From Streptomyces sp. HM190 (lineage in GTDB: Bacteria; Actinomycetota; Actinomycetes; Streptomycetales; Streptomycetaceae): a stretch of 64,000 nt of DNA. Below are positions 4,205-19,622 of the stretch, piece by piece; within the stretch, counting starts at the first letter, position 1; every line of letters starts with the position of its first letter. The notes beneath the pieces are model-generated. The model saw only the letters and a program-made list of their open reading frames with translations, made no database searches and had not been told where the DNA came from. The stretch covers positions 7,192,001-7,256,000 of the forward strand of contig NZ_CP047318.1 of NCBI RefSeq assembly GCF_009857135.1, in the 5' to 3' direction. A program made the translations under genes and the position numbers.

Positions 4205-4734
4205 GCCTGCTCCAGCAGCGCACGCAGTGCGGCGGCGTCCGCCTGGAGCTGTGCCTCGTCCTGGCGGTTTGTGTCTAGGGCCGTCCACGGGAGCGGCCCG
4301 CCTGGCGCCGGGTCGGCGTGGTCGGCGTAGCGGGGAACGATGTGGGTGTGGAGGTGGGGCACCACGTTGCCGAGGGTGGAGTAGTTCATCTTCATCGGCT
4401 GGTAGAACGCCGTCAGGGCCTTGCCGAGCGTGAGGGTGTCGGCCCAGTACGCGGCGGCGTGGGCGTCTGAGAGGTCGGTGGGCTCGGCGACGTGCGGTGC
4501 GCCGCGGTGAATGAGTACGCAGTAGCCCCGGACCTGGCCCGAGCGCCACAGGTAGGCGTTGGCCACTTCGCCCTGGTGGAGCAGGATGCCCCAGCCGATG
4601 TCTTCGGCGGCGAAGTCGTTGTCACACATGGGGCAGCCCTGGCCGTCGCGGTGGCGGAGGAATTCCTCGGACCACCCGGCCGGTCGACTGGGGCCGTCGG
4701 CGGGCGGGGGAACGGGTTGCCGTTGCTGGGTCAT
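4201..4734 (-). CDS. HIT-family hydrolase
   Basis: A 177-residue protein with the histidine triad HLHTHIVPR at about 127-135 and an N-terminal CPMC pair that may bind zinc. HIT proteins hydrolyse nucleotidyl phosphoramidates, dinucleoside polyphosphates or adenylated acceptors. The ATG at 4734 overlaps the upstream stop; a frame extending to 4926 lacks family similarity. In an operon with Nudix enzymes and methyltransferases it may remove nucleotidyl groups from an intermediate or protect the host. HIT phosphoramidases are known to give resistance to microcin-C-type aminoacyl adenylates, but the link here is only contextual. Confidence 0.85.
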   Translation of the reverse strand: MTQQRQPVPPPADGPSRPAGWSEEFLRHRDGQGCPMCDNDFAAEDIGWGILLHQGEVANAYLWRSGQVRGYCVLIHRGAPHVAEPTDLSDAHAAAYWADTLTLGKALTAFYQPMKMNYSTLGNVVPHLHTHIVPRYADHADPAPGGPLPWTALDTNRQDEAQLQADAAALRALLEQA

Positions 4735-6158
4735 GGACAACTCCCGAGCGATGGAGACGTCTGGTGGGGGACGGCGGCGAGCGGGGGCAGCGTCCAGGTG
4801 AGGGCCATCCGGCCGGGACCGGAGGCGACGCGCTGCGGGTCCCCGCCGTCCGGAATATCGACCCGGTACGTGTCCGGACGGCCCGCCCGCTCCCAAGCGT
4901 CGTGGACGTTTTCGAGTTCGGCCCACACATCACGCGGCCCGTGCACGCGGACCGTGCCGTCGCCGGGGCCGGCCACCGCCCAGGAATCCTCCTCCGGGGC
5001 GACGATGGTCATCGTGTCGGCCTGGAAATCCCTGACCAAGCCCGGTGCCAGGTACGCGGCGGCGATCCAGAAGCCGTGGGCGTCATCGTCGGGCGGCGCG
5101 AGCCGGGTTGGGCGCGGTCGGCCGGGGTCGGCCTTGACCTTGGGCCGGTGGGTCACGGCGGTGAGCCACTCGTAGCCGAGCAAGGGCCGGTGGCCGCGCG
5201 GCCTGCCCGTCAGCACCGCCTGAAGCCTGCCCTTCATCGTGCGGGTGGCGCGCATCTGGCCTGGCCAGCTGGGCGTTCTGGTCACGAGCGTGGTCAGCAG
5301 CGTTCCGCCGGGGGCGAGCTGCTCCACCCAAGCCAGCGGGATGCAGGGCACGCCGATGCCGGAATGGATCCGGTCATACGGTGCCCCGGTGGTGTGTCCG
5401 TTGAGCGCGTCACCTTCGACGACCGTCGCTTCCAGCCCGAGCCGGTCCAGGTTCCGCTGGGCGAACACGCTCATGTGCGGATCGCGTTCGACCCCGGTGG
5501 CACGGCCAGGGCCCGTGATGGCAGCGGCGAGCGCCAGGGAGATCCCGGGACCTGAACCAAGGTCCAGGAACCGCTGCCCGCAGTCCAGTTGGAGGCATTG
5601 CAACACCTCGACGGTGGCAGGGGCGTAGGTGCTCATGGAGGTCATGTGGCCGCCGGTCACCGGTCCCCGGCGAAGGGCGTCCAGCGGCTCGCCGTCGCGC
5701 TGGAGCAGGATGGAGTCGCCGCTGTGGACGAGGTCGAGCCACTCCGGCTGGTCGTCGGGGTGCGAGCCGTCGAGGAGCCGCCAGTCGATCGGATCCGCGC
5801 CTGGGCCGCTGAGCCGGACGTACGCGTGGGGGAGAAGCACTTCCCGCCGCACACGCAGGAGGGCATCGCGCAGCCGCGGGTCGGTCAGCACGCCGTCGGC
5901 GACGAGGCGGTCGACCATCGCGGTGCGGGCGGCGGCCGTTGCGGCGAACAGGTCGGCGGGCATCCTCGGACGCTGGGACGTGCTCGATGCAGAACCCTCT
6001 CCTTGTTCCTGACCGGTTGGCCCTGCGGCAGTCCTTGTAGTGCTTGCACCGGGGGGTGCGGGTGTGTCCAGGATCTCGGCGCGGTGCTTGCAAGAGGAGT
6101 CCGGCTGTTGGACGGCTTCAGCACCAGGCCGGTGCGTGTCCATCTCCGGGGCGCTCAC
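4731..6158 (-). CDS. Protein-L-isoaspartate O-methyltransferase-like enzyme
   Basis: About 475 residues from a GTG at 6158 that overlaps the Nudix stop. After a roughly 65-residue low-complexity N-terminus, the protein shows RTAMVDRLVADGVL and LRDALLRVRREVLLPHAYV, as in PCMT-type proteins, a Ser/Thr-rich GGHMTSMSTYAP segment and motif I FLDLGSGPGISLALAAA, followed by GVERDPHM and an acidic GDALNG loop. A C-terminal extension of about 180 residues is not recognised. PCMT relatives repair isoaspartate, but in peptide natural-product clusters they esterify Asp side chains, sometimes giving aspartimides. The conserved Asp of the operon's leader-like peptides is a conceivable target; this is inference. 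Confidence 0.7.
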   Translation of the reverse strand: MSAPEMDTHRPGAEAVQQPDSSCKHRAEILDTPAPPGASTTRTAAGPTGQEQGEGSASSTSQRPRMPADLFAATAAARTAMVDRLVADGVLTDPRLRDALLRVRREVLLPHAYVRLSGPGADPIDWRLLDGSHPDDQPEWLDLVHSGDSILLQRDGEPLDALRRGPVTGGHMTSMSTYAPATVEVLQCLQLDCGQRFLDLGSGPGISLALAAAITGPGRATGVERDPHMSVFAQRNLDRLGLEATVVEGDALNGHTTGAPYDRIHSGIGVPCIPLAWVEQLAPGGTLLTTLVTRTPSWPGQMRATRTMKGRLQAVLTGRPRGHRPLLGYEWLTAVTHRPKVKADPGRPRPTRLAPPDDDAHGFWIAAAYLAPGLVRDFQADTMTIVAPEEDSWAVAGPGDGTVRVHGPRDVWAELENVHDAWERAGRPDTYRVDIPDGGDPQRVASGPGRMALTWTLPPLAAVPHQTSPSLGSCP

Positions 6159-6604
6159 TTTTGCCGCTCCCAACCGATCTCGGTATACAGCCGGCCGGCA
6201 CGAATCCCCTCGATGGCCGCTCGGGTGTAGGGAACGGTCGGCTCCGGCAGACGGTCGGCAGGCCACCAGGTCCAACGGAGGCACTTGTCCGGCTCCAGTA
6301 CGTTGGGCTCGCCCGCCCATCGGCTGGGCTGGAAGAACAGTTGAACGCGCGGTACGGCGTCCTCGTGGTCGAGGAGGTGCACCGTATGCACGAGGGTGAG
6401 GTCCTCCTCGGCGACGACCAGCTTCGCCTCCTCCATCGCCTCCCGTGCGACGCAGCTCCGGGCCGGTTCTCGTTCCACATGGCCTGCGAGCACATGCCAC
6501 TGGCCGCCCGCGTATGCCGAATCCGGGTGCCGCTGCCCGAGCAGCACCATGCCGTCCCGCTCCAGGTACAGGTGGCCGCCGATCACATTCAGTTCCGCGC
6601 TCAC
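6155..6604 (-). CDS. Nudix-domain protein with a degenerate box
   Basis: A 149-residue single-domain Nudix protein. The box reads GHVEREPARSCVAREAMEEAKL: one residue is missing between the first Gly and first Glu, and the Gly after the EE pair is Lys, so only part of the consensus GX5EX7REUXEEXGU is kept. Surrounding features (LGQRHPDSAYAGGQWHVLAGH, VQLFFQPSRW, FEVRHW-like strand, KCLRWTWWP) still fit the family. GTG start overlaps the MFS stop. It may be catalytically altered or act as a binding protein. Confidence 0.75.
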   Translation of the reverse strand: MSAELNVIGGHLYLERDGMVLLGQRHPDSAYAGGQWHVLAGHVEREPARSCVAREAMEEAKLVVAEEDLTLVHTVHLLDHEDAVPRVQLFFQPSRWAGEPNVLEPDKCLRWTWWPADRLPEPTVPYTRAAIEGIRAGRLYTEIGWERQK

Positions 6605-7992
6605 GCCGTACCACCTCCGCCCACCGCGGGATTGCGCTGTCCGTCGCCGGCGGGGGCGGCGCCGGGTGAAGGTGAGGGGGAGGGGACGGGTGGTTGCATG
6701 AGTGGATCTCCTGGAGGGGAGGGGACGGGCTTGGCTCCGGGCATCTGGCGGAGGCCGCGTAGTGGGGAGCGGTAGAGGACCATGAGGGGGACGAGGAGCA
6801 GGCAGGTGCCGACGATCAGGGTGGGCCGTACGCCGATCCGTGTCCCGAGGCCGCCAGCGACCAGGGCGGCCACCGGCCGGGCGCCTGAGGTGAGCCAGGT
6901 GCTCACGGCCTGCATGCGGGCCTGCATGTCATCGGCGGTGACGACCTGACGAATGGAGCGCTGGGTGGTTCCCGCCGCCGCGGCGCAGGCCAGCTGGAGA
7001 AACAGGGCGGCGCCGATGCCGGTCTGCCAGGCCGGGGCTGGGGAAGCGAGCAGCAGCGGGATCTGGGTGAGCGGGGTGAGCGCGAGCGCGACGAGCATCA
7101 TCGGCCCGGGCCCGTACCGTCGCGCGAGGGCTGGCGCGGCAAGCGCTCCTGCTGCCGCGCCGAGGGCTCCCAGCCCCAGGACCACGCCGAAGGCGGTCGG
7201 GCTCATCGAAAGGGACTTGAGCAGGTACAGGGCCCACAGGGTGTTGAGGAGTGCCAGGGCGGCCGAGGTAGTCGCGTTGACCAGGGTCAGCGTACGCAGC
7301 CGGTGGTCACGGCTTACGTACCGCAGGCCCTCACCGATCTCGGTGTGCAGACGGTCGCTTCCTGCTCGCGCCCGGGCGGTCTCGCGAGTCTGGATGCGGG
7401 CGGTGCACCAGGCGCTGACGAGGTAGGAGCCGACGTCACCGAGCAGTGCCCGGGCCGGTCCGAGGAGCGCGGTCAGGGCGGCGCCGAGGTTGCTGCCGGC
7501 GGTGGCGGCGACGGCGAACAGGGCGCCGATACGGCTGTTGCTCCGTTGGATCAGGGACCGGTCGACCAAGCCGGGCAGGAGACTGATCGCTGCGGCATCA
7601 TGCAGCACCCCTGCCGCACCCTGCACCGCAGCGACCACCATGAGCTGAGCCAGGGACAGCCTGTCCAGCGCCGCCGCTGCGGGCACGCTGGCCAGCGCGG
7701 CGGCACTGACCAGATCTCCGGTGATCATCTGCTTCCGCTTGGAGTACCGGTCGGCCAGCGCTCCGGCGTGCAGCGCCAGAAGGGCGGGCGGGAGTTGGCC
7801 CATGAACGTGATCCAGGCAACCTGGGCAGGGCTGGCATCCAGGACGAGAACGGCCAGCACGGGCAGGACCATCGCGCTGATCGAGCTGCCGGCCACACTG
7901 GCGGCCTGGCCGGTCAGGTACCGACGGAAGTCCTGGTGCCGCCACAGCGACGTCCGCCCGGCCGACGAGACGGGGTCACACGAGGAGGACAT
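6601..7992 (-). CDS. MFS transporter
   Basis: The 463-residue product has about twelve hydrophobic segments and the MFS signature ADRYSKRKQMITGD between helices 2 and 3. It resembles the enterobactin-exporter-like MFS_3 group (RHQDFRRYLTGQAAS at the start). A likely substrate is the product of the operon or a toxic intermediate. The C-terminal tail is Pro/Gly-rich and cytoplasmic. ATG start at 7992 lies inside the end of the preceding small ORF; its ribosome site is a GAGGGGG run just upstream. Confidence 0.85.
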   Translation of the reverse strand: MSSSCDPVSSAGRTSLWRHQDFRRYLTGQAASVAGSSISAMVLPVLAVLVLDASPAQVAWITFMGQLPPALLALHAGALADRYSKRKQMITGDLVSAAALASVPAAAALDRLSLAQLMVVAAVQGAAGVLHDAAAISLLPGLVDRSLIQRSNSRIGALFAVAATAGSNLGAALTALLGPARALLGDVGSYLVSAWCTARIQTRETARARAGSDRLHTEIGEGLRYVSRDHRLRTLTLVNATTSAALALLNTLWALYLLKSLSMSPTAFGVVLGLGALGAAAGALAAPALARRYGPGPMMLVALALTPLTQIPLLLASPAPAWQTGIGAALFLQLACAAAAGTTQRSIRQVVTADDMQARMQAVSTWLTSGARPVAALVAGGLGTRIGVRPTLIVGTCLLLVPLMVLYRSPLRGLRQMPGAKPVPSPPGDPLMQPPVPSPSPSPGAAPAGDGQRNPAVGGGGTA

Positions 7993-8230
7993 GACCTACC
8001 CCCTCGGCTCCCGTCGGGCGCACGCCCGGCACGACCGTGGATGCGTGATCGTGTTGCTCGGGCATCCCATGCACCGCGGTGTCCACGGCCGGGGCGCTGG
8101 CGCCGCGGAGCAGAAACCCCTTCCGCCGCAGAAGGGGAGCGTCACATGGATGGGGGCCGTTCAGCACATCGGCATCCGGACGGGTCAGCATGGCGGTGAG
8201 CACGATGCTCTTCCGCGGGCGTGTGCTCAT
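7976..8230 (-). CDS. Small ORF of unknown function between the two transporters
   Basis: An 84-codon frame whose ATG overlaps the stop of the ABC transporter gene (ATGA) and whose end overlaps the MFS start by 17 bp. The product has one Cys, no membrane segment and a His/Pro-rich C-terminal half. Overlap at both ends fits the operon's style, but the frame also covers a CCCCTTC/GAAGGGG hairpin (about 8116-8136), so the stretch could simply be an intergenic spacer. I recognise no family. Confidence 0.35.
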   Translation of the reverse strand: MSTRPRKSIVLTAMLTRPDADVLNGPHPCDAPLLRRKGFLLRGASAPAVDTAVHGMPEQHDHASTVVPGVRPTGAEGVGHVLLV

Positions 8231-10268
8231 GCGGATGCCTGCCGCTGTGCGTCATCGTCCCGGGCATCCGAGGAGACCTGGCACGACAGCAGCTGTCGGA
8301 ACAGACCCGGTTGCTCGGCCAGCTGTTCGTATGTGCCCTCCTGCACGACCCTGCCCTCGTCGAGAACGACGATTCGGTCGGCTACGGCGACGCTGGTGAT
8401 GCGGTGGGTCACCAGCAGTACCACCCGGTCCCGGGCAAGACCCCGTAGCCGCTGGAAAATCCGGTACTCGGCAAGCGGATCGAGGTTCGCGGTCGGCTCG
8501 TCAAGGACCAAAAGCCCTGCCTGGCGGAAGAACGCCCGCCCGAGAGCGATGCGCTGCCACTGGCCCCCGCTCAGTTCCTCCCCGTTGAGCCACTCGCGGG
8601 CGAGAAGGGTGTCCAGCCCGGCGCCGAGCTTGTCGACGACCTCGTCGGCCCCGGCGGCCTCACACGCCTCGCGTACCGCCGCGTCCCCACGCGCCGTGGG
8701 CTGCCCGAGGGTGATGTTCTCCCGCACCGTCAAAGGCCAACGTGCGTAGGTCTGGGGTACCAGGGCCACCTGCTGCCACAGCGCCTGCGGCTCGGCGTCG
8801 CCGGTGGGAACGCCGTCCCACAGCACCTGCCCCTCGGTGGGCAGATACAGGCCACTGATCAATTTCGACAGCGTCGACTTCCCCGAGCCGTTGAAGCCGA
8901 CAAGGGCGGTGACCTCGCCCTGGCGAAGGGTGAGTGTCACGTCGGACAGAGCGTCTTGGTTCTTGCCCGCGTACCGGTGTGTGACCGACTTGATCTCGAT
9001 CTTCTTCGGCGGCCCCGGGCGATGCGTGCCCCGGCGCATGCGGAACCCCCCGGCCTTGTCCAGGAAGCCGCTCCAGTCGTCCATGTACAGGCCCGTGCGC
9101 ACGGCGCGCGCCCCTACCGAGACCAGACCGCGGACCGACTGGCCCACCGTCTGCAAGGCGAACACAGCCGTCCCGGCGTGTCCGACGCTGATGCGGCCGG
9201 TGGCCAGCAGCCATACGACCGCCGCCCATACGACCGCCGACCCCACGCCGCCGCACAGCGCGCCGATCAAGGACATGCGGGCCCCCTTGTCGGCGGCGGC
9301 GCGGTCCTCGCGGTTGATCCGGGCAACCGTCTGCCGGTACCGGCCGGAGAGGAAACCGGCCATGGTGCCGGCACGGATCTGGTCGGCAGCCTCCTTGGTG
9401 TAGATGTGCCAGCGCAGGATCGACAGCATCCGCAGGTCGCCGTTGCTGCGCAGATTTGCGAGGTAGCGCACACGTGCGGCGCTGACCTGGGCCAGGGCCT
9501 GCGGCAGGCTGGCCGCGACCAGAAGTGGGAGAAGGACCCAGTGCACGCCGGCCAGCACGATCGCTCCAGCGACGAAGGAGGCCGACGAGGCGATCAGGTC
9601 CTGCCCCTCGTTGATCAGGTCCCCAGTGACTTGCGCCCCGCGGTCGGCGGCTTCGCGGTCGTGGTTGAAGTCGGGCTCGTCATAGGCGCACAGCTCCACC
9701 TCGGCGCAGCCGGTGAGCAGCATCTGCTCGGCCTCGCGCGACATCAGTGGGCCCAACCGGGAAGACAACCAGGAGACGGTGATCCCCAGAAGGGCGCGTA
9801 CGCCGGCGGTGCCGGCCAGCAGGGCCACAGAAGGCCACGCCTGAAGGAGCCGCTGGTAGACAGGTAGACGTCTCCGCTGGTCAGCAGGGCGGTCAGGGTG
9901 CCGCTGATGGCGACCAGGCCGAGGGCTTGCATCACGCCGGTGACGGCCTGGCACAGCAGGAGACCGATGGTCGCTCGGCGGTCGACCCGCCATGCGAGAG
10001 CCAGTGACCGGCGTACCAACTGCGGCAGCCGCCGGGCCATATAGCGCATCCTGATCGAACGGCCGGCCGCTTCATGGCTGCCCGTCAGATCGATGTACCG
10101 CATCTGCGGCTCCCTGGCAGCCGTTTCCGATGGCTCATCCGGCTCGGCTGTAGAGGACGCGTCGGGCCCGGTCGTCGGTCCGGGAGGCAACGAGGAGGGT
10201 GTGGACTCCAGCGGGGCGGTGCGCGGCCCCGGGATGTTGTCGGGTGATGCATCGGTGGGCTCACTCAT
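8227..10268 (-). pseudogene. ABC transporter with fused permease and ATPase, frameshifted near 9861-9870
   Basis: An exporter-type ABC half-transporter: an N-terminal polar region, membrane domain, then an ATPase with Walker A GFNGSGKS, Q-loop VPQTYARWPLTVREN, signature LSGGQWQ, Walker B LLVLDEPTANLDP and H-loop VTHR. Reading from the ATG at 10268 is membrane-protein-like up to TALLTSGDVYL. The homologous sequence continues as VYQRLLQAWPSVALLAG in another frame, as expected if one base were missing near 9861-9870. No slippery sequence is seen there, so this is either a real mutation or a sequencing error. The ATG overlaps the stop of the 47-residue peptide gene, with GAGGTGG as its ribosome site lying inside that gene. 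Confidence 0.75.
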
Positions 10269-10408
10269 GCTGCCCACCTCGTATCCGGTCGTGCTGCGCG
10301 CTGGGCAGCGGCGTCAACTTGCCGCCCGGATCGTGCGGAGCACGGGACAGCCGGCATGGGACGTTCGAATGCGGCGATGGGATTCGCAGGGACGGGCACA
10401 GGGTTCAC
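10265..10408 (-). CDS. 47-residue peptide A, first gene of operon A (candidate precursor or leader peptide)
   Basis: GTG start preceded by GGAGGA at a good distance; the TGA overlaps the ATG of the ABC transporter gene. The product aligns ungapped over 47 residues with peptide B (12355-12498), with 15 identities: PV at 3-4, P7, AFE at 13-15, S24, R26, A33, RPDTR at 40-44, A47, and an aromatic residue (W here, Y in B) at 45. One Cys (23), no membrane helix, Pro/Ala/Arg-rich. The frame is open further upstream (to 10714), but similarity to B begins exactly at this start. I recognise no family. Roles to consider are a modified-peptide precursor with Asp42 as the methyl acceptor, or a translated leader controlling the operon. 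Confidence 0.6.
   Translation of the reverse strand: MNPVPVPANPIAAFERPMPAVPCSARSGRQVDAAAQRAARPDTRWAA
10276..10293 (-). repeat. 18-bp element shared by the two peptide genes (copy A)
   Basis: Minus-strand sequence CACGACCGGATACGAGGT, identical at 12366-12383. It encodes the RPDTR motif and its GAGGT also serves as the ribosome site for the coupled downstream gene. Confidence 0.8.
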
Positions 10409-10680
10409 GGAGTCCTCCAGATGGACGCACGAGGGGTACTGGTGCTCTAACAACGGCCCCCGGACGGGTCTGTCACGGGCAGATCCGGGGCAGATAGTGG
10501 ACGGATGTTCTATTGGGTGGCCAGGGTCAAGCGGGCCTTGTCGTGGGTCGCGCCTGTGTCGCTCGAACAGCTGGGATAACCCTTTCGAGGTATTGCGGGG
10601 GGATCCCGTCGGGCGCGGTGGGGCATGGCAACGAGGAGCAGCGGCGGCGGTGGCGTCCGCTGCTCTCGACCTGGGGCGGG
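10409..10680. other. Gap between the glycosylase gene and peptide A; likely promoter region of operon A
   Basis: No supported gene. A TTGACC hexamer on the minus strand (10525-10530) could be a -35 element, but no convincing -10 box follows at normal spacing. No strong hairpin was seen. Confidence 0.4.
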
Positions 10681-11778
10681 TCAGGTTCCGGTCTGCTCCA
10701 GGGCCGCGTTCCATGCGGTGAGGGCGTCGGGGCCGGAACGCAGGAGCGAGGCGACGGGATTGGTCAGGTACTCGTGCTCGACGAGGTAGAGGCCGGCGGT
10801 GCCGGCGTAGCCGGGGAACAGTTCGTTGAGGCGGGTCATCACGGTCTCCGGCGCGGCGTCGTCAGCGTCGAGGAGGCGGCGCGCAAGGATCTTGCGGTTC
10901 CACACGTCGATGCCGAAGGCGGCAGGGTCGCGGGAAGCGTGGGAGGCAATTACCGCGGCGGTGTAGGGGCCCACTCCTTTGATTTCTTGGACGGCCTCCA
11001 TCAGGTTTCCGGCAGCCTTGAGGTCCTCGGTGCTGTGGTCGCGGAAGTAGGCCGCGTAGTGCGGAAGGCTTTTGGCGCGAAAGCCCAGCCGGTCCCGTTC
11101 CTTCAGCGTCTCGGGCGGAACGTGGGCGATCTCGTCTGGGGTGAACCAGGCCCGCAGCGTGATCCCGTCGAAGTGGACGAGATGGCCGTAGTGGGCCAGC
11201 AAATTGCGGGTCATCTGGGTGGTGCGGCGGATGGTGACGTTCTGCAGCAGCAGGGCGATCACGGCGATCTCGAAGTGGTCCTCCGGGCACGACTGCCGCA
11301 TCCCGCCCAGGACTGCGAGTGCCTCGCGCATTGCGGGCACATGGGACGCGAGTTCCGCGAACGCCGCATGGTCTTCGTCCAACCCGTATGAAGAGATGAG
11401 CCGGCGCGTCAGCTCCTCGCGGTCGGCGGGCTTGAAGTCACCGGCGGTGTAGATGTCGGCGATCACGGTGCGGTCCTCGGCATGCAGCCGGACTCCGACC
11501 ACGAGGTCGCCGACTCGGAAGGTACGCCAGCTGCAGGACTCGGTGTGGGCTTCCAGGCCGGTGGCGTAGTGGGACGGCTTCCAGAAGGTGTGCAGGGCGT
11601 TGAACGGACCGTCGCCGGTGACGGGTAGTTCGAGGGTGTCGGTGTGGTCGAGGGTGCGGGGGTTCACGTCATGCTCCCGGGTGGCGGCCGTGGGTCGCAG
11701 GGGGCCGCCGAACAGCTCGTGTTCGGCGTCGGAGACCTGCGGATCGGCCATCGTGACCGGGCCGAAGAATCTCTTCAC
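10681..11778 (-). CDS. HhH-GPD DNA glycosylase (AlkA/OGG-like)
   Basis: A 365-residue protein with the base-excision fold. The helix-hairpin-helix IKGVGPYTAAVI lies at about 266-277, followed by the catalytic Asp in FGIDVWNRK (about residue 291). The LLLQNVTIRRTTQM helix matches the family's conserved region before it. The OGG1 catalytic Lys inside the hairpin is replaced by Pro/Tyr, suggesting a monofunctional, AlkA-like enzyme. The N-terminal 120 residues resemble the glycosylase N-terminal domain. GTG start overlaps the Nudix stop (GTGA). Pairing with a Nudix protein suggests nucleotide or DNA damage handling, or protection against the operon's product. Confidence 0.8.
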   Translation of the reverse strand: MKRFFGPVTMADPQVSDAEHELFGGPLRPTAATREHDVNPRTLDHTDTLELPVTGDGPFNALHTFWKPSHYATGLEAHTESCSWRTFRVGDLVVGVRLHAEDRTVIADIYTAGDFKPADREELTRRLISSYGLDEDHAAFAELASHVPAMREALAVLGGMRQSCPEDHFEIAVIALLLQNVTIRRTTQMTRNLLAHYGHLVHFDGITLRAWFTPDEIAHVPPETLKERDRLGFRAKSLPHYAAYFRDHSTEDLKAAGNLMEAVQEIKGVGPYTAAVIASHASRDPAAFGIDVWNRKILARRLLDADDAAPETVMTRLNELFPGYAGTAGLYLVEHEYLTNPVASLLRSGPDALTAWNAALEQTGT

Positions 11779-12242
11779 CGGGCGCCTCCCGCAGGCCAGT
11801 TGATGGCCCGGTAGGACGGGCCGTGGGTGAGCAGGTGGAAGATGGTGGCGGTGTAGGGGTGACAGTCCGGCGACGGTCGTTCCATCGGCACCCAGACGAG
11901 CCCTTCGTGCTTGTGTGGCTCGGCGTTGTACGGCTCACCCGTCCACGACTGCGCCAGGAACACGGCGGTGATCCGGTCCAGGCCACCGTCGCAGTCATGG
12001 TGGTGGATTAGTCCGCAGAACTCCTGCTGCTCAGCAGTGATATGGACCCCTACCTCCTCCATGGCCTCGCGTCGCGCAGCGTGGTCGAGTGGTTCACCGA
12101 ATTCCAGGTGGCCGCCCACGACAGTGAGCTGTCCCGGTGCGAGGGCGGCGTCCAGTGCGCGGCGTACGCACAGGGCGGCGCCGTTCGTACGGAGCAGGAC
12201 CTGTGCCACGTCGGCGATCAGCTGGTGAGGCGAGTCGCTCAC
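11775..12242 (-). CDS. Nudix hydrolase
   Basis: A 155-residue Nudix protein with a full canonical box GHLEFGEPLDHAARREAMEEVG near residues 42-64 and the N-terminal strand VLLRTNGAALCVRRALDAAL. It resembles the MutT/nucleotide-sanitising group, but the substrate cannot be assigned. The GTG start overlaps the stop of the 39-residue ORF; its TGA overlaps the glycosylase start. Confidence 0.85.
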   Translation of the reverse strand: MSDSPHQLIADVAQVLLRTNGAALCVRRALDAALAPGQLTVVGGHLEFGEPLDHAARREAMEEVGVHITAEQQEFCGLIHHHDCDGGLDRITAVFLAQSWTGEPYNAEPHKHEGLVWVPMERPSPDCHPYTATIFHLLTHGPSYRAINWPAGGAR

Positions 12243-12358
12243 GGGCGGCCCTCCTGCACCAGGCGTTCTAGGGTGTGCCGACCATTGGTCACGAGGGCAC
12301 CGCTGTGCCGAAAGCTATAGGTGAGGACGGAGGACGGGAGAGGTGTGGGCTGCGTCAT
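12239..12358 (-). CDS. 39-residue ORF between peptide B and the Nudix gene
   Basis: ATG overlaps the TGA of peptide B (ATGA) and its own TGA overlaps the GTG of the Nudix gene, so it sits in an unbroken coupled chain. The start has the GAGGT ribosome site encoded within peptide B. The product is soluble, with a basic, helix-prone C-terminal half (NGRHTLERLVQEGRP) and no Cys. It has no counterpart downstream of peptide A and no recognised family. Confidence 0.5.
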   Translation of the reverse strand: MTQPTPLPSSVLTYSFRHSGALVTNGRHTLERLVQEGRP

Positions 12359-12498
12359 GCCAGGTACCTCGTATCCGGTCGTGACCCGTCGTCGAGCAGA
12401 GCTGCGCGACCGGAAGTGAGGCGAAGGCTGGCGCCCGAGGAGGTAGCGGCATTTTCGAACGCAGGATGAACGAGTCCAGGGCGGCGTACGGGATGCAT
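12355..12498 (-). CDS. 47-residue peptide B, first gene of operon B (paralogue of peptide A)
   Basis: ATG preceded by CGAGGAGT; TGA overlaps the next ATG. Same length as peptide A and 15 of 47 residues identical without gaps, concentrated at PV (3-4), AFE (13-15) and RPDTR (40-44), with Tyr at 45. No Cys. The regions between the conserved ends differ at most codons, while the 3' 18 bp are identical. That both copies sit first in an operon and are stop-start coupled to the next gene argues that they are genuine genes. Function unknown. Confidence 0.6.
   Translation of the reverse strand: MHPVRRPGLVHPAFENAATSSGASLRLTSGRAALLDDGSRPDTRYLA
12366..12383 (-). repeat. 18-bp element shared by the two peptide genes (copy B)
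   Basis: Identical to 10276-10293. Both copies are followed within a few bases by GCATGA, the stop-start overlap to the next gene. Confidence 0.8.
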
Positions 12499-12582
12499 GG
12501 GGACTCCTCGGGGCGAGATGCGGACAGGTGATCGGGTAACGGCGGCCCTGCTGTAGCCGTAACGGGTGGAGGGGGGCGAAAT

Positions 12583-12663
12583 CTAGAACGTGATCTCGAA
12601 TATCGGGCTCTCTCCTTGTGTCGTCGGTCGAGGCGGGCTGTGATGCAGTGTTCGATCACTCAT
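12583..12663 (-). CDS. 26-residue micro-ORF downstream of the CYTH-like gene
   Basis: ATG overlaps the TGA of the preceding 19-residue ORF; ends in TAG. The product is His/Pro-rich and ends in IFEITF. It is the third link of a stop-start chain beginning at the CYTH-like gene. It could be a small peptide gene or chance; no homologue is recognised. Confidence 0.3.
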   Translation of the reverse strand: MSDRTLHHSPPRPTTQGESPIFEITF

Positions 12664-12719
12664 GTGGGTTGCGGTACCTCCTGCGGGGGATTGCCGGGGG
12701 GGGGCGCTTGATCAGTCAT
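12660..12719 (-). CDS. 19-residue Pro-rich micro-ORF
   Basis: ATG overlaps the stop of the CYTH-like gene and its TGA overlaps the next ATG. The product is 37 percent Pro. Coupling is the only support. Confidence 0.25.
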   Translation of the reverse strand: MTDQAPPPGNPPQEVPQPT

Positions 12720-13924
12720 GGCGTAGCGAGGTCCGGGCGGAGGGCGATGGCGTCGCGAAGGAAGCTGCGCTTGGAGTAGAAGGTGTGCTCGGCGGCCCAA
12801 CCGTGACTGGCGACGTGCTCGCAGAGCCAGCTGTCGATCCGCTTCATCTCGATGAGGATCTCGTCCTGGTCGTGGTCGAGGATGCTGCGTGAGCGGAGAT
12901 ACTCCAGCTCGCACTGGGAGAGCACCACGTCGGGGGCCGCCAGGAGGGCGCAGCGGTCGAGGAAGATGCCGTAGACGTGTCCGGTGCGCAGCGACTCGCA
13001 CTGGATGTCGTAGCGGACGCGCTGGAAGGGCGGCATGGCCCGGACCTGGAGGTTCAGGTCTTCGCGCAGGAACGTCTCGAAGCGGTCGGGGGTGATGTCG
13101 AGGCCAGGGGTGAGTTCCTCGCGGCGGGCGAAGGCGTCCTCGGTGAACCACTTTCGCTTCAGCACGTGCCCGGCGGTGACGGTAGGGATGAAGGAGGCGT
13201 AGCCGATCTCGGGCTCGGGGCCGGTGACGTCGAACAGATGGTTCTCGGTGTGGTGGATCTGGAACTCTTCCCGGTACTCCGGACGGCAGCCTTCCAGCTT
13301 GCCGTCGCGCAGTGCCTTGAGCAGTTCCATGGACGCGGACCAGATGTCCGGTGCCGGGGCAAGGGTGTACTTGAACTCCAGCTCGGTGCCGGAGAAGTGC
13401 TTGCGGAAGTACCGCAGATGGTTGTTGAGCGCCGTACTCGACTCTGCGTGCGCCGTCAGCACGGGGTCGAACCAGTGCAGTTCCTCGACCGGGCCGTGGC
13501 CGACTGGTTCCCGGGTGGTGCGGACGAAGCAGGCGTCCTCGGGGTGGAAGCGGATCTGCGCGTACGCGTGGTAGCCGCCGCCGGGGTGTTCGGCTAGGTA
13601 GCACAGCGGCACCAGGCCGGGGGCGTCCTCGGTGCCGACCAGGCCGCGCAGGGCGGGGCCGGCGATGGCGTCGGGGAACAGTTCGCAGCCGTCGATCCTG
13701 GCCGCCCCGAGCCGGGTGCCGCCGGGGTGCAGCGCTTCGGCCGGGCATGGCCCCAGCGCGTTCCAGCGGACGATCACGGTGGTGGCCGGCCGGCATACCT
13801 CCTGCGGTGGCACCCGTACGAGCACGATCGGCTCGTCTGGTCGCCGTGGCGCGGTGCGGTTGAGGAGGTGGACGCCGCCGAGGACGACCCAGGCTCCCCG
13901 GTCCGAGGGCTGCTCATCGGGCAC
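12716..13924 (-). CDS. Unknown protein with a CYTH-like (triphosphate-tunnel) domain
   Basis: 402 residues from a GTG preceded by AAGGAGA. The N-terminal half (about 1-140) is unrecognised. The C-terminal half has the hallmarks of CYTH enzymes: an ExExK strand (ELEFKYTL), a basic strand VLKRKWF, VRYDIQCE, FLDRCAL, and a late acidic ELEYL. CYTH proteins bind triphosphate groups inside a tunnel and include adenylate cyclases and thiamine triphosphatases. Assignment rests on motif order only. A triphosphate-binding protein would suit a neighbourhood full of Nudix enzymes. Divergent from the Nudix gene at 14067 across a 142-bp gap. Confidence 0.5.
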   Translation of the reverse strand: MPDEQPSDRGAWVVLGGVHLLNRTAPRRPDEPIVLVRVPPQEVCRPATTVIVRWNALGPCPAEALHPGGTRLGAARIDGCELFPDAIAGPALRGLVGTEDAPGLVPLCYLAEHPGGGYHAYAQIRFHPEDACFVRTTREPVGHGPVEELHWFDPVLTAHAESSTALNNHLRYFRKHFSGTELEFKYTLAPAPDIWSASMELLKALRDGKLEGCRPEYREEFQIHHTENHLFDVTGPEPEIGYASFIPTVTAGHVLKRKWFTEDAFARREELTPGLDITPDRFETFLREDLNLQVRAMPPFQRVRYDIQCESLRTGHVYGIFLDRCALLAAPDVVLSQCELEYLRSRSILDHDQDEILIEMKRIDSWLCEHVASHGWAAEHTFYSKRSFLRDAIALRPDLATP

Positions 13925-14066
13925 GCTGGTCTCCTTCGTGTGAAGCGGGTGCCACGGGTGATCGCCCTGCAGCCCGAAGGGGCCACCGGGTCGGCCGGAC
14001 ATGCCCGGATGGCTGCCTGCTCGTCGCTGCGACGTCCGGCCGGTTCGCCGGCCTAGGGTGGGGCGG

Positions 14067-14597
14067 GTGAGTCATGGTGAAGTCGGTCAGGTGATCTTGG
14101 ACGAGGCTGTTGCGGATGCCCGCCTCGCCGCGTGGGAGTTCGACGGTGCACGGGCCTGGCTGGAGGAAGCCCGCCGACATCCCATGGAGCCGCTGGCGGC
14201 CGAGGTGTGGGTCACCGACCCTGCTTTCGAGCACGTCCTGCTGGTCAAGCACCGCGTGCGCGGATGGGTGCCGCCCGGTGGCAAGGTGGAGCCGGGCGAG
14301 GCGCCGCGTGCGGCGGCGGCACGAGAGCTGCTGGAGGAGACCGGCCTGCGCACCGAGTTGCTGCCCGAGCCCGCTGCCGTGGCGGTGCGTTCCTACCGGG
14401 CCGACTGGTCTCCGACGCTGGGCCTGTCCTACGCCGCGATCGTGGGACGCGACGTGCCGCTCGCCGGGGAGCAGAACCAGCCGGCGGCATGGTTCCGTCT
14501 GGATACAGGCTGGGACAGCGTCTTCCCCGAGGACCGCGAGCGGATCCGTGCGCACGCTCGCTGTCTGGCAGCCGGCCGGGCGGTCGGCTCCCGCTGA
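14067..14597 (+). CDS. Nudix hydrolase
   Basis: 176 residues from GTG 14067, with a canonical box GGKVEPGEAPRAAAARELLE followed by ETGL near residues 72-95. The N-terminal 40 residues form a helical extension (WEFDGARAWLEEARRHP). Only plus-strand gene in this part of the island; it converges with the next Nudix gene, their stops about 20 bp apart. Similar proteins are annotated as 8-oxo-dGTP diphosphatase-like, but the substrate is not determinable. Confidence 0.85.
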   Translation: MSHGEVGQVILDEAVADARLAAWEFDGARAWLEEARRHPMEPLAAEVWVTDPAFEHVLLVKHRVRGWVPPGGKVEPGEAPRAAAARELLEETGLRTELLPEPAAVAVRSYRADWSPTLGLSYAAIVGRDVPLAGEQNQPAAWFRLDTGWDSVFPEDRERIRAHARCLAAGRAVGSR

Positions 14598-14617
14598 GGT
14601 AGGCCCTTGGCCGCCGT

Positions 14618-15163
14618 TCACAGGAGGGCCTCGATCCGGTCGAGGTCGGCCGAGGGCAGGCTGACGAGCTCAAGGTCGTGTAGGAAGCGGCACCACACCG
14701 GCTCCAGGCCGGGTTCGCGCTCGAACTCCTCACGGTCCAGGTACCCGTTGGCGTGCGCGGTGGTCCGCAGCGCGTGCTGCTGCAGCTGGGCCGGGTGGAT
14801 CCACCGAGGGGCGCGGACCTCCCGGGGCGAGGGGCACAGCGACCCGGAAACCTCGGCCTGGAAGATCCACCAGTGGTGGCCGACCGGACCGCTGGGCGTG
14901 CGGTGGCAGTGGTTGGGCCGCCACTGGTCCAGCAGCAGGTGCAGGTGGGTGACGGTGAGACCGACCTCTTCGGTGACTTCGTCGCGCGCGGCCTGCTCGG
15001 GGCCGCCATGCTCGTCGACGTGGCCGGCGACCGGGGCGATTCCGGCCGGAGGAATCGCCCGCTCGAACACCAGCAGGCCGCTCGGGGAGGAGATCAGTAC
15101 CCCGACGCTTGCGTGGTCACAGAGGCGGGCCCCGCCGCCGGGAGCCGGGGCGGCCGGAGTCAT
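14618..15163 (-). CDS. Nudix-domain protein, box partly degenerate
   Basis: 181 residues; ATG overlaps the methyltransferase stop (ATGA). The box reads GHVDEHGGPEQAARDEVTEE followed by VGL, keeping the essential EE pair, but the first Glu is Gly and the RE pair is DE. The protein resembles Nudix enzymes acting on larger nucleotide substrates, with WWIFQAEV and PRWIHPAQL strands. Last gene of the leftward 7-deazaguanine-type operon. Confidence 0.75.
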   Translation of the reverse strand: MTPAAPAPGGGARLCDHASVGVLISSPSGLLVFERAIPPAGIAPVAGHVDEHGGPEQAARDEVTEEVGLTVTHLHLLLDQWRPNHCHRTPSGPVGHHWWIFQAEVSGSLCPSPREVRAPRWIHPAQLQQHALRTTAHANGYLDREEFEREPGLEPVWCRFLHDLELVSLPSADLDRIEALL

Positions 15164-16005
15164 GCGGCGGCCTTTGGCCGTTGGGCGACGACGACGAGCC
15201 AGCTCGTCACGGCCGGGGCATCGGGGGTGGTCATGGCGTAGGCGGTGTCGAGGATCTGCATCCGCTGGGCGTGGGTGAAGTCGCCTTCGGGCCGGGCGAA
15301 GACGGGGATGGACAGCCACGCCTTCTTCTCGGCCATGGTGCTGTGCTGGGCGGTGAGCTCTGTGCCGACGATAGTCAGTCCGGCTGCGGTCAGCTGCTCG
15401 GTGACTGTTTTCAGCGGCAGCTTCGGCGGCCTGTCCGCGTCGCGCGGCGGTGGGGTGTATCCGTGGGTCTCAGCGGCGACTTGGCGGATGAGGGCGTTTA
15501 GGGAAGGCCCGGTGCGGGTTGACAGTTCGTCGGGGTGCCGGACGCCGGCGAAGCCGCCGCCGATGTTGAAGACGAAGTGCCCGCCTGGGCGCAGGATGTG
15601 GGCGACGGCTGCGAACACTGCGGCGGTGTCGGTCTTCCAGATCGCGGAGTTGCACACTACGGCGTCGGCGCTGCTGGCGTGCAGGTGGTCGGCGAGCCGT
15701 TCGGCCGGGGAGGTGATCCAGGTCAGGCGGGCGTCGGTCAGGGTGCGGCGACCGACACGCTGCATCGCGGTGGCGTTGTCGACGGAGACGACCCGAGCGC
15801 GGGCCGGGATCAGGTCGAGGATCGCGCGGGCGGTCGCGCCGGCGCCGCCGCACAGGTCGACCACCAGGCTGGCGTTGGCCAGATGGCCTCGGCGGGCAAG
15901 GTCGCGGCTGGTCGCGTCGTACATGGGGTGGGCGCGGGTGAAGGCGTTGTATGCCTCGGCGTTGCTGTCCTCGTCCCAGCCGAGGATGGCGTCCTGGGGT
16001 GCCAT
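15160..16005 (-). CDS. SAM-dependent methyltransferase
   Basis: 281 residues with motif I VVDLCGGAGATARAIL near 48-62, motif II VVSVDNATAM, and CNSAIWKTDT at the position of motif IV, followed by LRPGGHFVFNIGG. Class I Rossmann methyltransferase; acceptor unknown. Adjacent to nucleotide-type enzymes, so a nucleoside or small molecule is plausible. Confidence 0.75.
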   Translation of the reverse strand: MAPQDAILGWDEDSNAEAYNAFTRAHPMYDATSRDLARRGHLANASLVVDLCGGAGATARAILDLIPARARVVSVDNATAMQRVGRRTLTDARLTWITSPAERLADHLHASSADAVVCNSAIWKTDTAAVFAAVAHILRPGGHFVFNIGGGFAGVRHPDELSTRTGPSLNALIRQVAAETHGYTPPPRDADRPPKLPLKTVTEQLTAAGLTIVGTELTAQHSTMAEKKAWLSIPVFARPEGDFTHAQRMQILDTAYAMTTPDAPAVTSWLVVVAQRPKAAA

Positions 16006-16065
16006 GTTGCTGTGGCCTCGCTTCTCAGAGCGGCCCGGCAGTGCAGGCCGGGTGTTCGGGCAGGG

Positions 16066-16995
16066 TCAAAAGAGCGCGGACTGTACGGCGGCGGGCGGTG
16101 AGGAGAACTGTGCGCCGAGGACGATGCGCCGGCCCTTGAGGGTGCCGAGGTCGAGCAGGTAGGGCAGTTGTTCACCGTCGCCGTCGAGGGTGGCGAGGAC
16201 CTGGGAGCCGAGGCAGGAGAGCACCGTCAGTCCGTGCTCACCGGAGCGTGGGTCGTGCGGGTACAAGGCGCGCCCGGTCTTCGGCGTCCGCAGCAGTTCG
16301 CCTTCGCCGGGCGGCGTCCACGGCTCCGGTGTGGCCGGGACGTTCAGGCCGCTCAGGGCCGCGGTGGCGCGGTCGAGGTGCTGATGGTGGGCGGCGTCGG
16401 CCGGGGCGAGGTCGCGCAGCTCGGCCAGGGCCGTCAGCTTGGCCGCGGCTCGCACGGTCTGCGTCAGGCCGAGTTGGCGGGTGAGGGCATCCTCCAGGAA
16501 CCGCACAGCGCGGCCGTCAGCACTCCGGGCGAGGTAGGTAGCGATCAGGGCACCCTGTTCGTCGAGGCGGGAGCGCTTACGGGGTTCGGCCGCGGTGCCG
16601 ATCTTGGTGGTGCCGTCGGCGAACGTCGCCAGGTACAGCCAGTGCGGCTGGGCCATGTACGCCGCCAGGGAGTCGGGAACATGCCCGCCGGAGTGGAACC
16701 GGTGGGCGAAGCGGAAGTCGTCCCGCCCGGCGCAGGCCGGGCACTGTCCGCCGACCTCGGCCGGGGCCCGGTCAGGGCAGGCGACCGCCTCGACGCGGAC
16801 GCGGTCGGCGAACCGGTACCTGCCGATGCACCACCGGCCGGTACCGCTCACCTGGTAACTCAGGCGCCTGCCCATGACCGGGGCGTAGACGAGTGGTCCG
16901 CCGGTCACGGGGGCGAGCAGAAGGCGGGGGTCTGCGCTCGCCCAGGTGATGCCGTGACAGACGTATGTCCCGCTGACGGGCAGGGCCTGGTCCAT
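16066..16995 (-). CDS. DUF2797-family protein
   Basis: 309 residues. Cys residues in CHG, WCIGRYRF, CPDRAP and QCPACAGRDDF suggest zinc binding in the N-terminal half. The central HWLYLATFADGTTKIGTA and RKRSRLDEQGA segments match DUF2797, a GIY-YIG-like family of unknown function common in actinobacteria. Lies 60 bp upstream of the methyltransferase gene. Possible nuclease-like or nucleic-acid-binding role, unproven. Confidence 0.7.
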   Translation of the reverse strand: MDQALPVSGTYVCHGITWASADPRLLLAPVTGGPLVYAPVMGRRLSYQVSGTGRWCIGRYRFADRVRVEAVACPDRAPAEVGGQCPACAGRDDFRFAHRFHSGGHVPDSLAAYMAQPHWLYLATFADGTTKIGTAAEPRKRSRLDEQGALIATYLARSADGRAVRFLEDALTRQLGLTQTVRAAAKLTALAELRDLAPADAAHHQHLDRATAALSGLNVPATPEPWTPPGEGELLRTPKTGRALYPHDPRSGEHGLTVLSCLGSQVLATLDGDGEQLPYLLDLGTLKGRRIVLGAQFSSPPAAVQSALF

Positions 16996-17031
16996 GGTGC
17001 GTTCCTTGTCGATCGGGGAGGGAGGGCCGGT

Positions 17032-17722
17032 TTAGACGGTCAGGCGCAGACGGTCGGCCAGGGCAGTGGAGGCGGCCTTGTAGACCTGGTCGCGGTCCAA
17101 CTGGGCGACGTGCAGCGTCAGCCAGGCGCCGCGTTCCGCCTGTTCGCGCATCTGGTCCAGGACGGTGTCCTGGTAGCGGATGAAGTCCTCGTCACCGCCG
17201 CCGGCGTGGCCGGCCTCCAGGGAAGTGAACGAGCCTTTGCGGACGAGAGCCTCGCGAGCACCGATGTTCAGGAAGAACACCAGGTCCGGCTTTGTGAGAT
17301 GCGCGAAGACCTGCTCGCACAGGCGGGGGGAGACCTCGGGGTTGACCGAGTACCGAGCGAGGATCTTGTGGTGCGCGTTGTCGAGGATCACGTGGGTTCC
17401 CGCGGCGAGGGCCGGCTGGATGACGCCGGTCCTGCAGGGTGTACCAGGAGGCCAGGGCAAGCAGCCAGTAGTGGTCGCCGCATGCCTGGGCGACGCTGGC
17501 GTCGCGCCGGTAGACCAGCTCGTTGAGGCGGTCGAGGTAGGCGGACAGCTCCGGGTCCCGGCGGACGTCGGTGCTGTGCTTGCCGATGAGGACTGCCGTG
17601 TGGCCGGCGTCGTTGAGGGCCTGGTGCAGGCGGGCTGCGAGGGTGGACTTGCCGGCCCCGTCACCGCCGACGAAGGTGATCAGCTTCCCGGCTGCGGTGG
17701 TGGCCGGCGTGTTCGCCGTCAT
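17032..17722 (-). pseudogene. Thymidylate-kinase-like P-loop kinase, frameshifted near 17430
   Basis: The start (ATG 17722, overlapping the upstream stop) gives KLITFVGGDGAGKSTLAARL, a Walker A typical of dTMP kinases, and continues to ALASWYTLQD. The rest (GVIQPALAAGTHVILDN through PDLVFFLNI and the C-terminus) is in another frame, as expected from one extra base near 17430. Total length of about 229 residues matches dTMP kinases. Either a true mutation or a sequence error. In context it would phosphorylate a (modified) nucleoside monophosphate. Confidence 0.7.
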
Positions 17723-18798
17723 CGGGATTCTCCCAGGGGGTGGGTCGGGCTGACGGTCAGGCGGCCGGTGATGATGGTGCGGATGCGGTCCACCAGGGCG
17801 GCGCGTTGGCGCAGGACGTCGCTGTGACGCTCATTGGACAGGTCGGCGGGATAGTGGGTGGCGAGGTTGTTGGAAATGACGTGGAGGTAACCGAATCTGA
17901 TCCCCGCCTGGCGCGCCGCCGCCCCCATGGGGCCGATCTCCGGGTCGACGAAGGCGTACGAGGCGGTGTGCTGGGCCAGCCAGTCGCGGTTCTCCAGCAG
18001 GATCGACGGGGAGGACACGTGCAGGCCGTTGCGCACCCCGTCGTGGGCGGCGGCGTAGTCGCCGAAGAAGTCGTCCCAGCTCACCATCGCCCCGCGTACC
18101 AGGCTGGTGTTGCCGGTCGCCAGCCAGGCGTTCGGTTCGACGCCGGGGGTCAGCGAGCCGACCTTGCCGACGTAGACGACATCGCCTGCGCCGAGTTCGG
18201 CAAGGCGCGCGACGACCCGTCCGGCCACGTCTCCCCATATGCTGTGGAGGAACCCGAGGTAGACCACGCGACGGCCAGCGACTTCGGTGCGTTGCCACGC
18301 GTAGCCGGGTCCGCGGGTCCACACTCCGTTCTCGGGAGCGAGGTACTGAAGGCCCCAGCCGACGATCACCAGGTCGCCGTCCAGTTCCAGGTCGAGCGCG
18401 TCGAGCGCCGTTCGGCACTCCTCCTGCTCGGGCGGCTGATAGGTGACGGTATCGGCGGGGCGGCCGGTCATGGCCAGATACGTGGCGATGATCAGGGCGT
18501 AGTGCTGGACGTAGTCGGCTCCGGGGAAAGCCTTGACGATGAGGTCACGGCCGTGGATCTCTGCGGTGGGCCGTTCGATGTTGAACAGCTTCCCGGTCTT
18601 CTCGTACCGGGAGATCACCGCCGTGCGGTCGTAGCCGCCGATGACGCGGATGCTGTCCCAGTCCTGGTCCTGGATGAGGTGGTGGACCTTGATCTCCAGG
18701 TAGCGCAGCAGCCTCGCGTGGGTCATGGTGTGCCCGGCCGGCTCGATCGGGGCGGCGCGCAGGAGTCCGGGGGTCGGGTCGGCGAGTAAGGGCGTCAT
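17719..18798 (-). CDS. Nucleoside-phosphorylase-like protein
   Basis: 359 residues; ATG overlaps the upstream stop. The C-terminal two thirds carry features of the PNP/UDP-phosphorylase fold: VVYVGKVGSL (phosphate-loop-like), SSPSILLENRDWL, and VDPEIGPMGAAARQAGIRF at the place where the family has the base- and ribose-binding Glu segment. The N-terminal 130 residues have no recognised domain but include RVIGGYDRTAVISRYEKTGKL. A role cleaving or making the glycosidic bond of a nucleoside fits the neighbouring TGT-like and queuosine-pathway genes. Confidence 0.6.
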   Translation of the reverse strand: MTPLLADPTPGLLRAAPIEPAGHTMTHARLLRYLEIKVHHLIQDQDWDSIRVIGGYDRTAVISRYEKTGKLFNIERPTAEIHGRDLIVKAFPGADYVQHYALIIATYLAMTGRPADTVTYQPPEQEECRTALDALDLELDGDLVIVGWGLQYLAPENGVWTRGPGYAWQRTEVAGRRVVYLGFLHSIWGDVAGRVVARLAELGAGDVVYVGKVGSLTPGVEPNAWLATGNTSLVRGAMVSWDDFFGDYAAAHDGVRNGLHVSSPSILLENRDWLAQHTASYAFVDPEIGPMGAAARQAGIRFGYLHVISNNLATHYPADLSNERHSDVLRQRAALVDRIRTIITGRLTVSPTHPLGESR

Positions 18799-19622
18799 CG
18801 GTGCTCCTCGGCGATCGTCACGGTGCTGCCGGCCGCCGCGCGAACGACGGAGATGTTCTTCCGGATGAGGTCGAACCGGTCTTCGGGGATCGGGCCGAGC
18901 TTCTCGATGCGGGGCGTGGAGGGCTTCTCGTATGGCCCTTCGGGCAGCAGGGCGACGCCCATCGCGCCGAGGATGACCGGGGCTGCGCCGTCCACGGAGG
19001 AGATCCACTCGTGCTCGCGCTGCTCGATCAGCTCCAGGTGCCCGGTCCGGCCCAGACCGAGCAGCCGGTAGATGAGCAGATCGTCGACCAGGCCGCGATC
19101 CTGCAGGTAGGCGGTCGCCAACCAGCGGGTGCGGCACAGTTGCTCGTCGGGATCCGGTCGACGCGAGGCCGGCAGGGCGATGGCCCCGGCCCAGCCGCTG
19201 GTCACGAAGGCGTCGTAGGTGCGCAGCCACTCGTCGTCGTCAGCGGCGTGCAGGACCGCGCACAGCCGGAATGCGTCGCCGGACAGCTTCCGGATCTCTC
19301 GCGCGGCCTTCTCGCTCGCCTTCAAGGTCGCGGTCCCGTCCCGCATGACGTCCGGCAGGATGATCTCCCTCGCGGACACCGCCAGCGCGGCTTCGACGAG
19401 GCTTTCCACCGGCAGGGCGTAGCCTAGGTCGAAGAGCCCGTTGTCGATGATGATCTCGGCGCCGCGCTCGGCCTCGTGAGCGAAGAAGGCCCGGTAGCTC
19501 TCGTCGGACAGCACGTGCTGGGCGGCCACGTGGTGGACGCGGGCCGGCTCTTGGGCGACGAAGTTCTTCAGGTAGGCAGGCGGAGCGATGACGGAGAAGT
19601 CGATGCCCGCGGTGGTGATCAC
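18795..19622 (-). CDS. TGT-superfamily-like protein (DpdA/tRNA-guanine-transglycosylase type)
   Basis: 275 residues; GTG overlaps the folE stop (GTGA). Motif pattern matches short TGT-like TIM-barrel proteins: EIIIDNGLFDLGYALP, REIILPDVMRDGTATL, AVLHAADDDEWLRTY, GAIALPAS and LLGLGRTGHLELI. The zinc-binding Cys cluster of tRNA TGTs is absent (only two Cys). Such proteins exchange guanine for a 7-deazaguanine base in tRNA or, in DpdA, in DNA. Its position directly after folE supports a 7-deazaguanine substrate. Family call is from motif recollection, not search. Confidence 0.55.
   Translation of the reverse strand: MITTAGIDFSVIAPPAYLKNFVAQEPARVHHVAAQHVLSDESYRAFFAHEAERGAEIIIDNGLFDLGYALPVESLVEAALAVSAREIILPDVMRDGTATLKASEKAAREIRKLSGDAFRLCAVLHAADDDEWLRTYDAFVTSGWAGAIALPASRRPDPDEQLCRTRWLATAYLQDRGLVDDLLIYRLLGLGRTGHLELIEQREHEWISSVDGAAPVILGAMGVALLPEGPYEKPSTPRIEKLGPIPEDRFDLIRKNISVVRAAAGSTVTIAEEHR

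Follow-up and report, generated by a model that had tools for sequence, protein, structure and literature searches.

Translational coupling by re-initiation is marked by a stop-start overlap and a ribosome site inside the upstream open reading frame (ORF), and class V lanthipeptides have an APH-like kinase next to a precursor with Cys in its core, and a partner of the HopA1 type. Chromatin immunoprecipitation sequencing of LexA in Streptomyces venezuelae gave the consensus tCGAAC-N4-GNNCGa (PMC9380542). In the sections of that work drawn on here, more than one LexA box was reported at lexA and dnaE2, TCGAACGTGTGTTT being given as lexA-2, and the strongly mitomycin-induced LexA targets include the ATP-binding cassette (ABC) transporter genes vnz_15995 (box CCGAACGCATGTGT) and vnz_26265. 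The leader ahead of BmrC/BmrD of Bacillus subtilis was described, in the relevant part of the report, to regulate via ribosome-mediated transcriptional attenuation (PMC4191407), while the imiditides and pamtides have been introduced as a class defined by a precursor together with a PIMT (PMC13001092, class definition). The present analysis concerns two 47-codon ORFs, pepA and pepB, in a window of 64,000 nucleotides from Streptomyces sp. HM190 (GCF_009857135.1, contig NZ_CP047318.1, positions 7,192,001 to 7,256,000; the window is this whole stretch). Judged from sequence, it is about an even bet (probability roughly 0.5) that pepA and pepB act as translated leader cistrons, coupling SOS-type promoters to exporter operons.

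The two ORFs and a block common to both are placed as follows.
10265..10408, minus strand: pepA, 47-codon leader ORF with GTG start; its stop overlaps the ATG of an ABC exporter gene
12355..12498, minus strand: pepB, 47-codon leader ORF with ATG start; its stop overlaps the ATG of a 39-residue ORF
12366..12383, minus strand: 18-bp block CACGACCGGATACGAGGT in pepB, encoding SRPDTR and continuing into GAGGT, the next gene's ribosome site
10276..10293, minus strand: the identical 18-bp block in pepA

The translations of pepA (VNPVPVPANPIAAFERPMPAVPCSARSGRQVDAAAQRAARPDTRWAA) and pepB (MHPVRRPGLVHPAFENAATSSGASLRLTSGRAALLDDGSRPDTRYLA) align without gaps, 16 of the 47 residues being identical with the initiator and 15 without it. 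None of 20000 shuffles equalled that, and the paralogy, equal length and ungapped alignment claimed in the original prediction are borne out. Its coordinates were also right; the strand was omitted there, and both ORFs lie on the minus strand. At the DNA level only 64 of 144 bases are identical. The window holds two copies of the 18-bp block, one per peptide gene, and its 16-bp core is absent elsewhere in the 7.76-Mb genome when up to one mismatch is allowed. Both predicted ribosome sites are visible in the sequence (GGAGGA ahead of pepA, CGAGGAG ahead of pepB), as is the overlap with the next gene, which is ATGA in both cases. For pepB the overlap had been called correctly, but the partner is a 39-residue phosphotransferase-like remnant, and the NUDIX gene comes after it. 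One Cys is found in pepA and none in pepB. The statement that the peptides match no family agrees with the 0 matches for either of them among the hidden Markov models of NCBIfam, Pfam and PADLOC, PHROGs being outside the search.

Homologues of pepB are present in the genus of the window, where the upstream DNA block is conserved to the same degree as the ORF. A profile made from sequence only matched 24/199 genomes, with distant loci among them. The peptide profile A3, built from 21 rows, matched 107/246 genomes at E <= 0.1, a good part of these matches being due to chance, and 43 places in 38/246 genomes at E <= 1e-3, a 44th place inside a 500-codon frame having been excluded. In the own genome, the peptide profile gave E values of 9.0e-13 for pepA and 7.0e-22 for pepB. 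Outside the genus, among 216 genomes of the class, all matches had E >= 0.002 and none spanned the full profile; one block-bearing named locus, L113, is titled Kitasatospora aureofaciens. In a plasmid copy from Streptomyces sp. NBC_01471, no feature is annotated under the peptide in a gene table that describes itself as incomplete. Among the open-access matches listed, no paper describing the leader family was found by title or abstract.

Loci were gathered as 35 regions and then 26 more, L226 being removed from the 26. The set used below comprises 49 intact ORFs of 25-84 residues, pepA and pepB included. Kept out of it were 14 of the 37 loci in one listing, namely those with a partial block (L066, L071, L076), a run-on or degenerate frame (L070, L080, L091), a lost start (L087, L099), a broken frame (L088) or a fusion to NUDIX (L094), and those which were short or redundant (L074, L075, L093, L096). 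An MxPV...PAFE start is recognisable throughout the family, and several members are Arg/Pro-rich. L092 (25 residues), L093 (24 residues) and L074 (20 residues) lack the C-terminal end. The leader start codon was lost in L087 and L099 and the leader end in L092 and L093, and all four loci kept the exporter. TTA codons are rare in Streptomyces and bldA-dependent; one is present at leader codon 4 in L090 and L092.

A constant property of the family is the junction with the following gene. The next start overlaps the leader stop in 49/49 intact ORFs, against a background of 138 four-base overlaps among 635 same-strand neighbours, and the overlap is kept while the length and sequence of the leader vary. 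The final leader codons contain the ribosome site of the next gene, typically GAGGT or GAGGTG. An own ribosome site, a first position in the operon and a stop-start overlap independent of length are what is expected of a coupled leader cistron, and all are seen here. A pure untranslated DNA element was rejected, since frame and overlap survive the length changes.

The leader was also followed through the relatives of one exporter in named genomes, of which 120 were confirmed and the best 80 kept. The upstream block was found in 22 of these 80, and the peptide profile matched 18 of the 22 block-bearing loci (not L110, L145, L149 and L150) and 0/58 block-less loci, four of which have fewer than 500 bases upstream. 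By these sequence comparisons, the occurrence of the leader ORF follows the promoter block and not the mere presence of an exporter. The block-less exporter promoters carry a different palindrome in 8/56 cases, and CGAAACAC-n-GTGTTCG stands at about -136 to -209 in block-less L108, L111, L114, L125 and L133. The relatives likewise bear out the operon-first paralogous family and the homologues ahead of similar operons, which are present in the genus in homologue search and neighbourhood comparison. Of the two roles first suggested, the translated leader is the better one, as the ORF tracks the regulatory DNA block and the overlap is constant despite variable length and sequence.

The regulatory DNA ahead of the two ORFs contains the following features.
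12500..12694, minus strand: conserved block of ~200 bp ahead of pepB, reaching from GCAATCCC to the ribosome site
12650..12655, minus strand: half-site TCGAAC of pepB, at -157
12584..12599, minus strand: LexA-like box of pepB, TCGAGATCACGTTCTA, degenerate, 7/10 consensus positions by hand count, placed by alignment with relatives
12559..12566, minus strand: promoter-like block of pepB, CCCGTTAC, followed by CGTTACC at 12541-12535
10563..10568, minus strand: half-site of pepA, at -160, reading GTTCGA on the minus strand
10497..10512, minus strand: LexA-like box of pepA, TAGAACATCCGTCCAC, degenerate, 7/10

The upstream block was aligned over 18 loci and 280 columns with 84% mean column identity. 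A 16-bp box is situated ~104 nt before the leader start and exactly 18 nt before CCGT(N)(A/T)C in 26/49 loci; the gap is 41 in 10 loci (the script took a second block) and 19 in 3, and 10 gave no fit. The best box agrees with tCGAAC-N4-GNNCGa at every position in 10/49 loci, compared with a frequency of 0.0002 in shuffles and 0/564 in control gene starts, of which 5/564 score at least 9 of 10. The boxes of the pepA clade read TAGAAC-N4-GTYCAC in 8/19 loci and those of the pepB clade TCGAAA-N4-GTTCTA in 8/14. Further upstream, TCGAAC or its reverse complement is found at -240..-131 in 47/49 loci and in 36/564 controls, and 41 of the 47 half-sites, both window copies included, fall within five bases of -160. 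In the pepB promoter, the scoring script chose a different 7/10 stretch, at -133. A scan of the pepA/pepB region gave no match to a sigma-70 promoter. Elsewhere in the own genome, CGAACGTGTGTTTG lies ~70 nt ahead of an ORF that we take to be lexA. This site resembles lexA-2 of S. venezuelae (PMC9380542). The Rfam scan returned a single chance-level match (E 4.2) and none relevant. A riboswitch-like RNA was set aside because the consensus fold is weak (-14.81 kcal/mol over 280 columns).

Constraint on the leader was analysed by comparing observed with expected synonymous changes; as the sequence pairs are not independent, the ratios are indications. For the N-terminal block of the whole family, 2058 synonymous changes were observed versus 1428.2 expected, a ratio of 1.44 in frame; the two remaining forward frames gave 0.38 and 1.09, and the reverse one, which shares third positions, gave 1.42. 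By clade, this ratio is 1.32 (pepA), 1.13 (pepB) and 1.8 (APH), and at equal length the pepB clade shows 60 observed versus 59.2 expected. In the middle of the leader, the numbers are 107 versus 129.6 for the pepB clade and 74 versus 78 for the pepA group. The five codons ending at the Asp of RPDTR (xSRPD) gave 656 versus 398.5, a ratio of 1.65, distributed as 2.16 in the pepA, 2.44 in the pepB and 1.06 in the APH clade. Codons are fixed at this end as well, Asp being GAT in 31/32 loci with Asp and Pro being CCG in 42/43 with Pro, while those of Arg -8 vary (CGA 27, CGT 7, CGC 5, CGG 3). These indications suggest that the RPDTR end is conserved at both protein and codon level, whereas amino-acid constraint appears weak at the leader start and is undetected in the middle. 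Conservation of DNA only, named beforehand as an outcome that would speak against the peptides, is therefore what the N-terminal block of the pepB clade displays, but not that of the family or the xSRPD codons.

The genes behind the leaders were predicted with a simple script based on codon usage and given labels according to their similarity with a small number of references; the label APH-like comes from the annotation of the plasmid copy, and NCBIfam assigned no family to it at E <= 1e-5. An ABC exporter is located within the same-strand run of 43/49 loci. The first called gene after the leader encodes an ABC protein in 26 loci, an APH-like kinase in 15, a NUDIX hydrolase in 6 and another protein in 1, and the remaining run has no called gene. 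None of the modifying enzymes is found throughout, a PIMT-like methyltransferase being present in 13/49 operons and an APH-like kinase in 20/49. Runs without exporter are those of L069, the pepB locus of the window, L203 (with a 195-codon exporter fragment 1.4 kb further on), L204, L211 and L222. Between the pepA and pepB clades, only about one third of exporter residues are identical. In L079, a third exporter-like gene follows the leader, and two more stand directly before that gene.

Taken together, the following sequence of events is proposed. DNA damage probably lifts repression of the operon, as suggested by the LexA-type half-site near -160 and the second LexA-type box near -104. Ribosomes would load at the strong site ahead of the leader, translate it and terminate on the ATGA at its end. 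Reinitiation would then take place on the first operon gene, be it for an APH-like kinase, a NUDIX hydrolase or an ABC exporter, aided by the ribosome site that the leader carries in its final codons. In this way, the leader may couple translation of the exporter to the regulated transcript, and the bulk of its amino-acid sequence would matter little. Several observations weigh against this proposal. Both -104 boxes of the window score 7/10, which taken alone is a chance-level value reached by about 42% of shuffles; the case for SOS control of the window copies is made from position, descent and half-site. If CCCGTTAC and CGTT form the promoter, the box would be ~18 nt upstream of it, an odd position for a repressor. 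The own genome contains 17 perfect CGAAC-N4-GTTYG sites, and an SOS gene was recognised at one of them only. The second ribosome site differs little in openness from controls, being slightly more paired (0.28 unpaired versus 0.37), and the family counts are not independent, as the relatives share ancestry. Moreover, the protein-level constraint (1.8 for the N-terminal block of the APH clade, 1.65 for xSRPD) indicates that the leader may do more than couple.

The alternative closest to the proposal leaves the leader-cistron mechanism unchanged and has the boxes bound by a regulator other than LexA. It has a certain appeal, as the window boxes are degenerate and 8/19 boxes of the pepA clade read TAGAAC-N4-GTYCAC rather than CGAAC-N4-GNNCG, yet the perfect LexA consensus at the same position in 10/49 loci and the TCGAAC half-site in 47/49, both window copies included, make it doubtful. 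LexA controls many bacteriocins, and the leader could instead be a secreted, perhaps bacteriocin-like or signalling peptide released by the adjacent exporter upon DNA damage. The exporter in 43/49 operons, the peptide gene in first position, the family-wide start with some synonymous excess and the Arg/Pro-rich members would fit this, but the middle is unconstrained, the end is absent in L092, L093 and L074, and L087 and L099 keep the exporter without a leader start codon. Together with the 58 block-less exporter relatives which have no peptide, and with inspection by eye only, which recognised neither a signal peptide nor a double-glycine leader, this renders secretion unlikely. Its wider form, a Streptomyces family of SOS-induced small peptides each released by its own LexA-controlled ABC exporter, so that damage is linked to peptide export, seems more improbable again.

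About as unlikely as secretion, or slightly more so, is a nascent peptide acting as sensor, in which drug- or metabolite-dependent ribosome stalling would regulate the exporter as for the BmrCD leader of Bacillus. This reading can draw on the exporter downstream and on an end near the stop that is conserved in amino acids (xSRPD 1.65; Arg -8 via four codons) and in codons (CCG GAT ACG). However, a simple scan found no terminator-like site on the transcribed minus strand of 10200-12800, the RNA consensus fold is weak, and some operons lack the C-terminal end. As for the modified-peptide precursor of the original prediction, a ribosomally synthesized and post-translationally modified peptide (RiPP) of the imiditide/pamtide or class V lanthipeptide type would be modified by the nearby PIMT-like methyltransferase or APH-like kinase. 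The single locus protein tested is indeed an FxLD-system methyltransferase (392.6 bits versus a cutoff of 320), and in 15/48 operons the called genes begin with an APH-like kinase. Against these stand the restricted occurrence of both enzymes (13/49 and 20/49), the lack of a constant one, Cys that is not conserved and a middle without synonymous excess, and we give a RiPP precursor very little credence.

The operons of the window itself appear rearranged.
8227..10268, minus strand: ABC exporter gene behind pepA, its frame broken once near 9861-9865
10681..11778, minus strand: HhH-GPD glycosylase-like gene (Pfam 24.5 bits, below the cutoff of 26.2)
11775..12242, minus strand: NUDIX hydrolase gene of the pepB operon, overlapped by the 39-residue ORF
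12239..12358, minus strand: 39-residue ORF, an internally deleted APH-like kinase remnant with a weak, collinear match to both kinase ends

The frame break in the pepA-operon exporter is seen against the intact relatives L206 and L217, which are 88-89% identical over most of the length, and it may be either an error or a real mutation. Over its first ~28 residues the glycosylase-like protein matches the exporter-family start, a gene fusion; it therefore seems that the pepB operon has lost its exporter through replacement. In L206 and L209, shorter relatives of the glycosylase-like protein immediately precede the leader. The minus strand of 4731-18800 holds many NUDIX genes (6155, 11775 and 14618, with 14001 on the opposite strand) as well as methyltransferases, and the genes at 12716-18798 precede pepB in the same order in five further loci (L082, L094, L095, L096, L100).

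The analysis adds to Streptomyces genomes an unannotated cassette of promoter block and leader ORF, a member of which is carried by 38/246 genomes at E <= 1e-3. A response to DNA damage is predicted for a family of ABC-exporter operons, several of which contain kinase and NUDIX genes; if true, the SOS response of antibiotic producers would be extended to efflux. It also offers an example of a peptide family which resembles RiPP precursors although much of its conservation is regulatory.

Compared with the described systems, the family shares with the imiditides and pamtides a short, often unannotated ORF, a PIMT-like methyltransferase sometimes nearby and the occurrence in Streptomyces, but as far as that class is defined by its PIMT (PMC13001092), PIMT-like genes in 13/49 operons set it apart. 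Points of likeness with the LexA regulon of S. venezuelae, in the portion compared, are the box consensus, perfect here in 10/49 promoters, the presence of more than one box at some genes, and ABC transporter genes; the family differs in the degenerate window boxes and in the leader peptide, none being described in that portion (PMC9380542). BmrC/BmrD, as outlined in the source, resembles the family in that a leader peptide precedes a multidrug ABC transporter; there it acts by attenuation (PMC4191407), while the present scan detected no terminator and the leader here overlaps the following gene. The family departs from class V lanthipeptides in that its APH-like kinase is confined to 20/49 operons. 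With general translational coupling it shares the stop-start overlap and the ribosome site within the upstream ORF, the difference being that the upstream ORF here is a small family carried with its promoter block.

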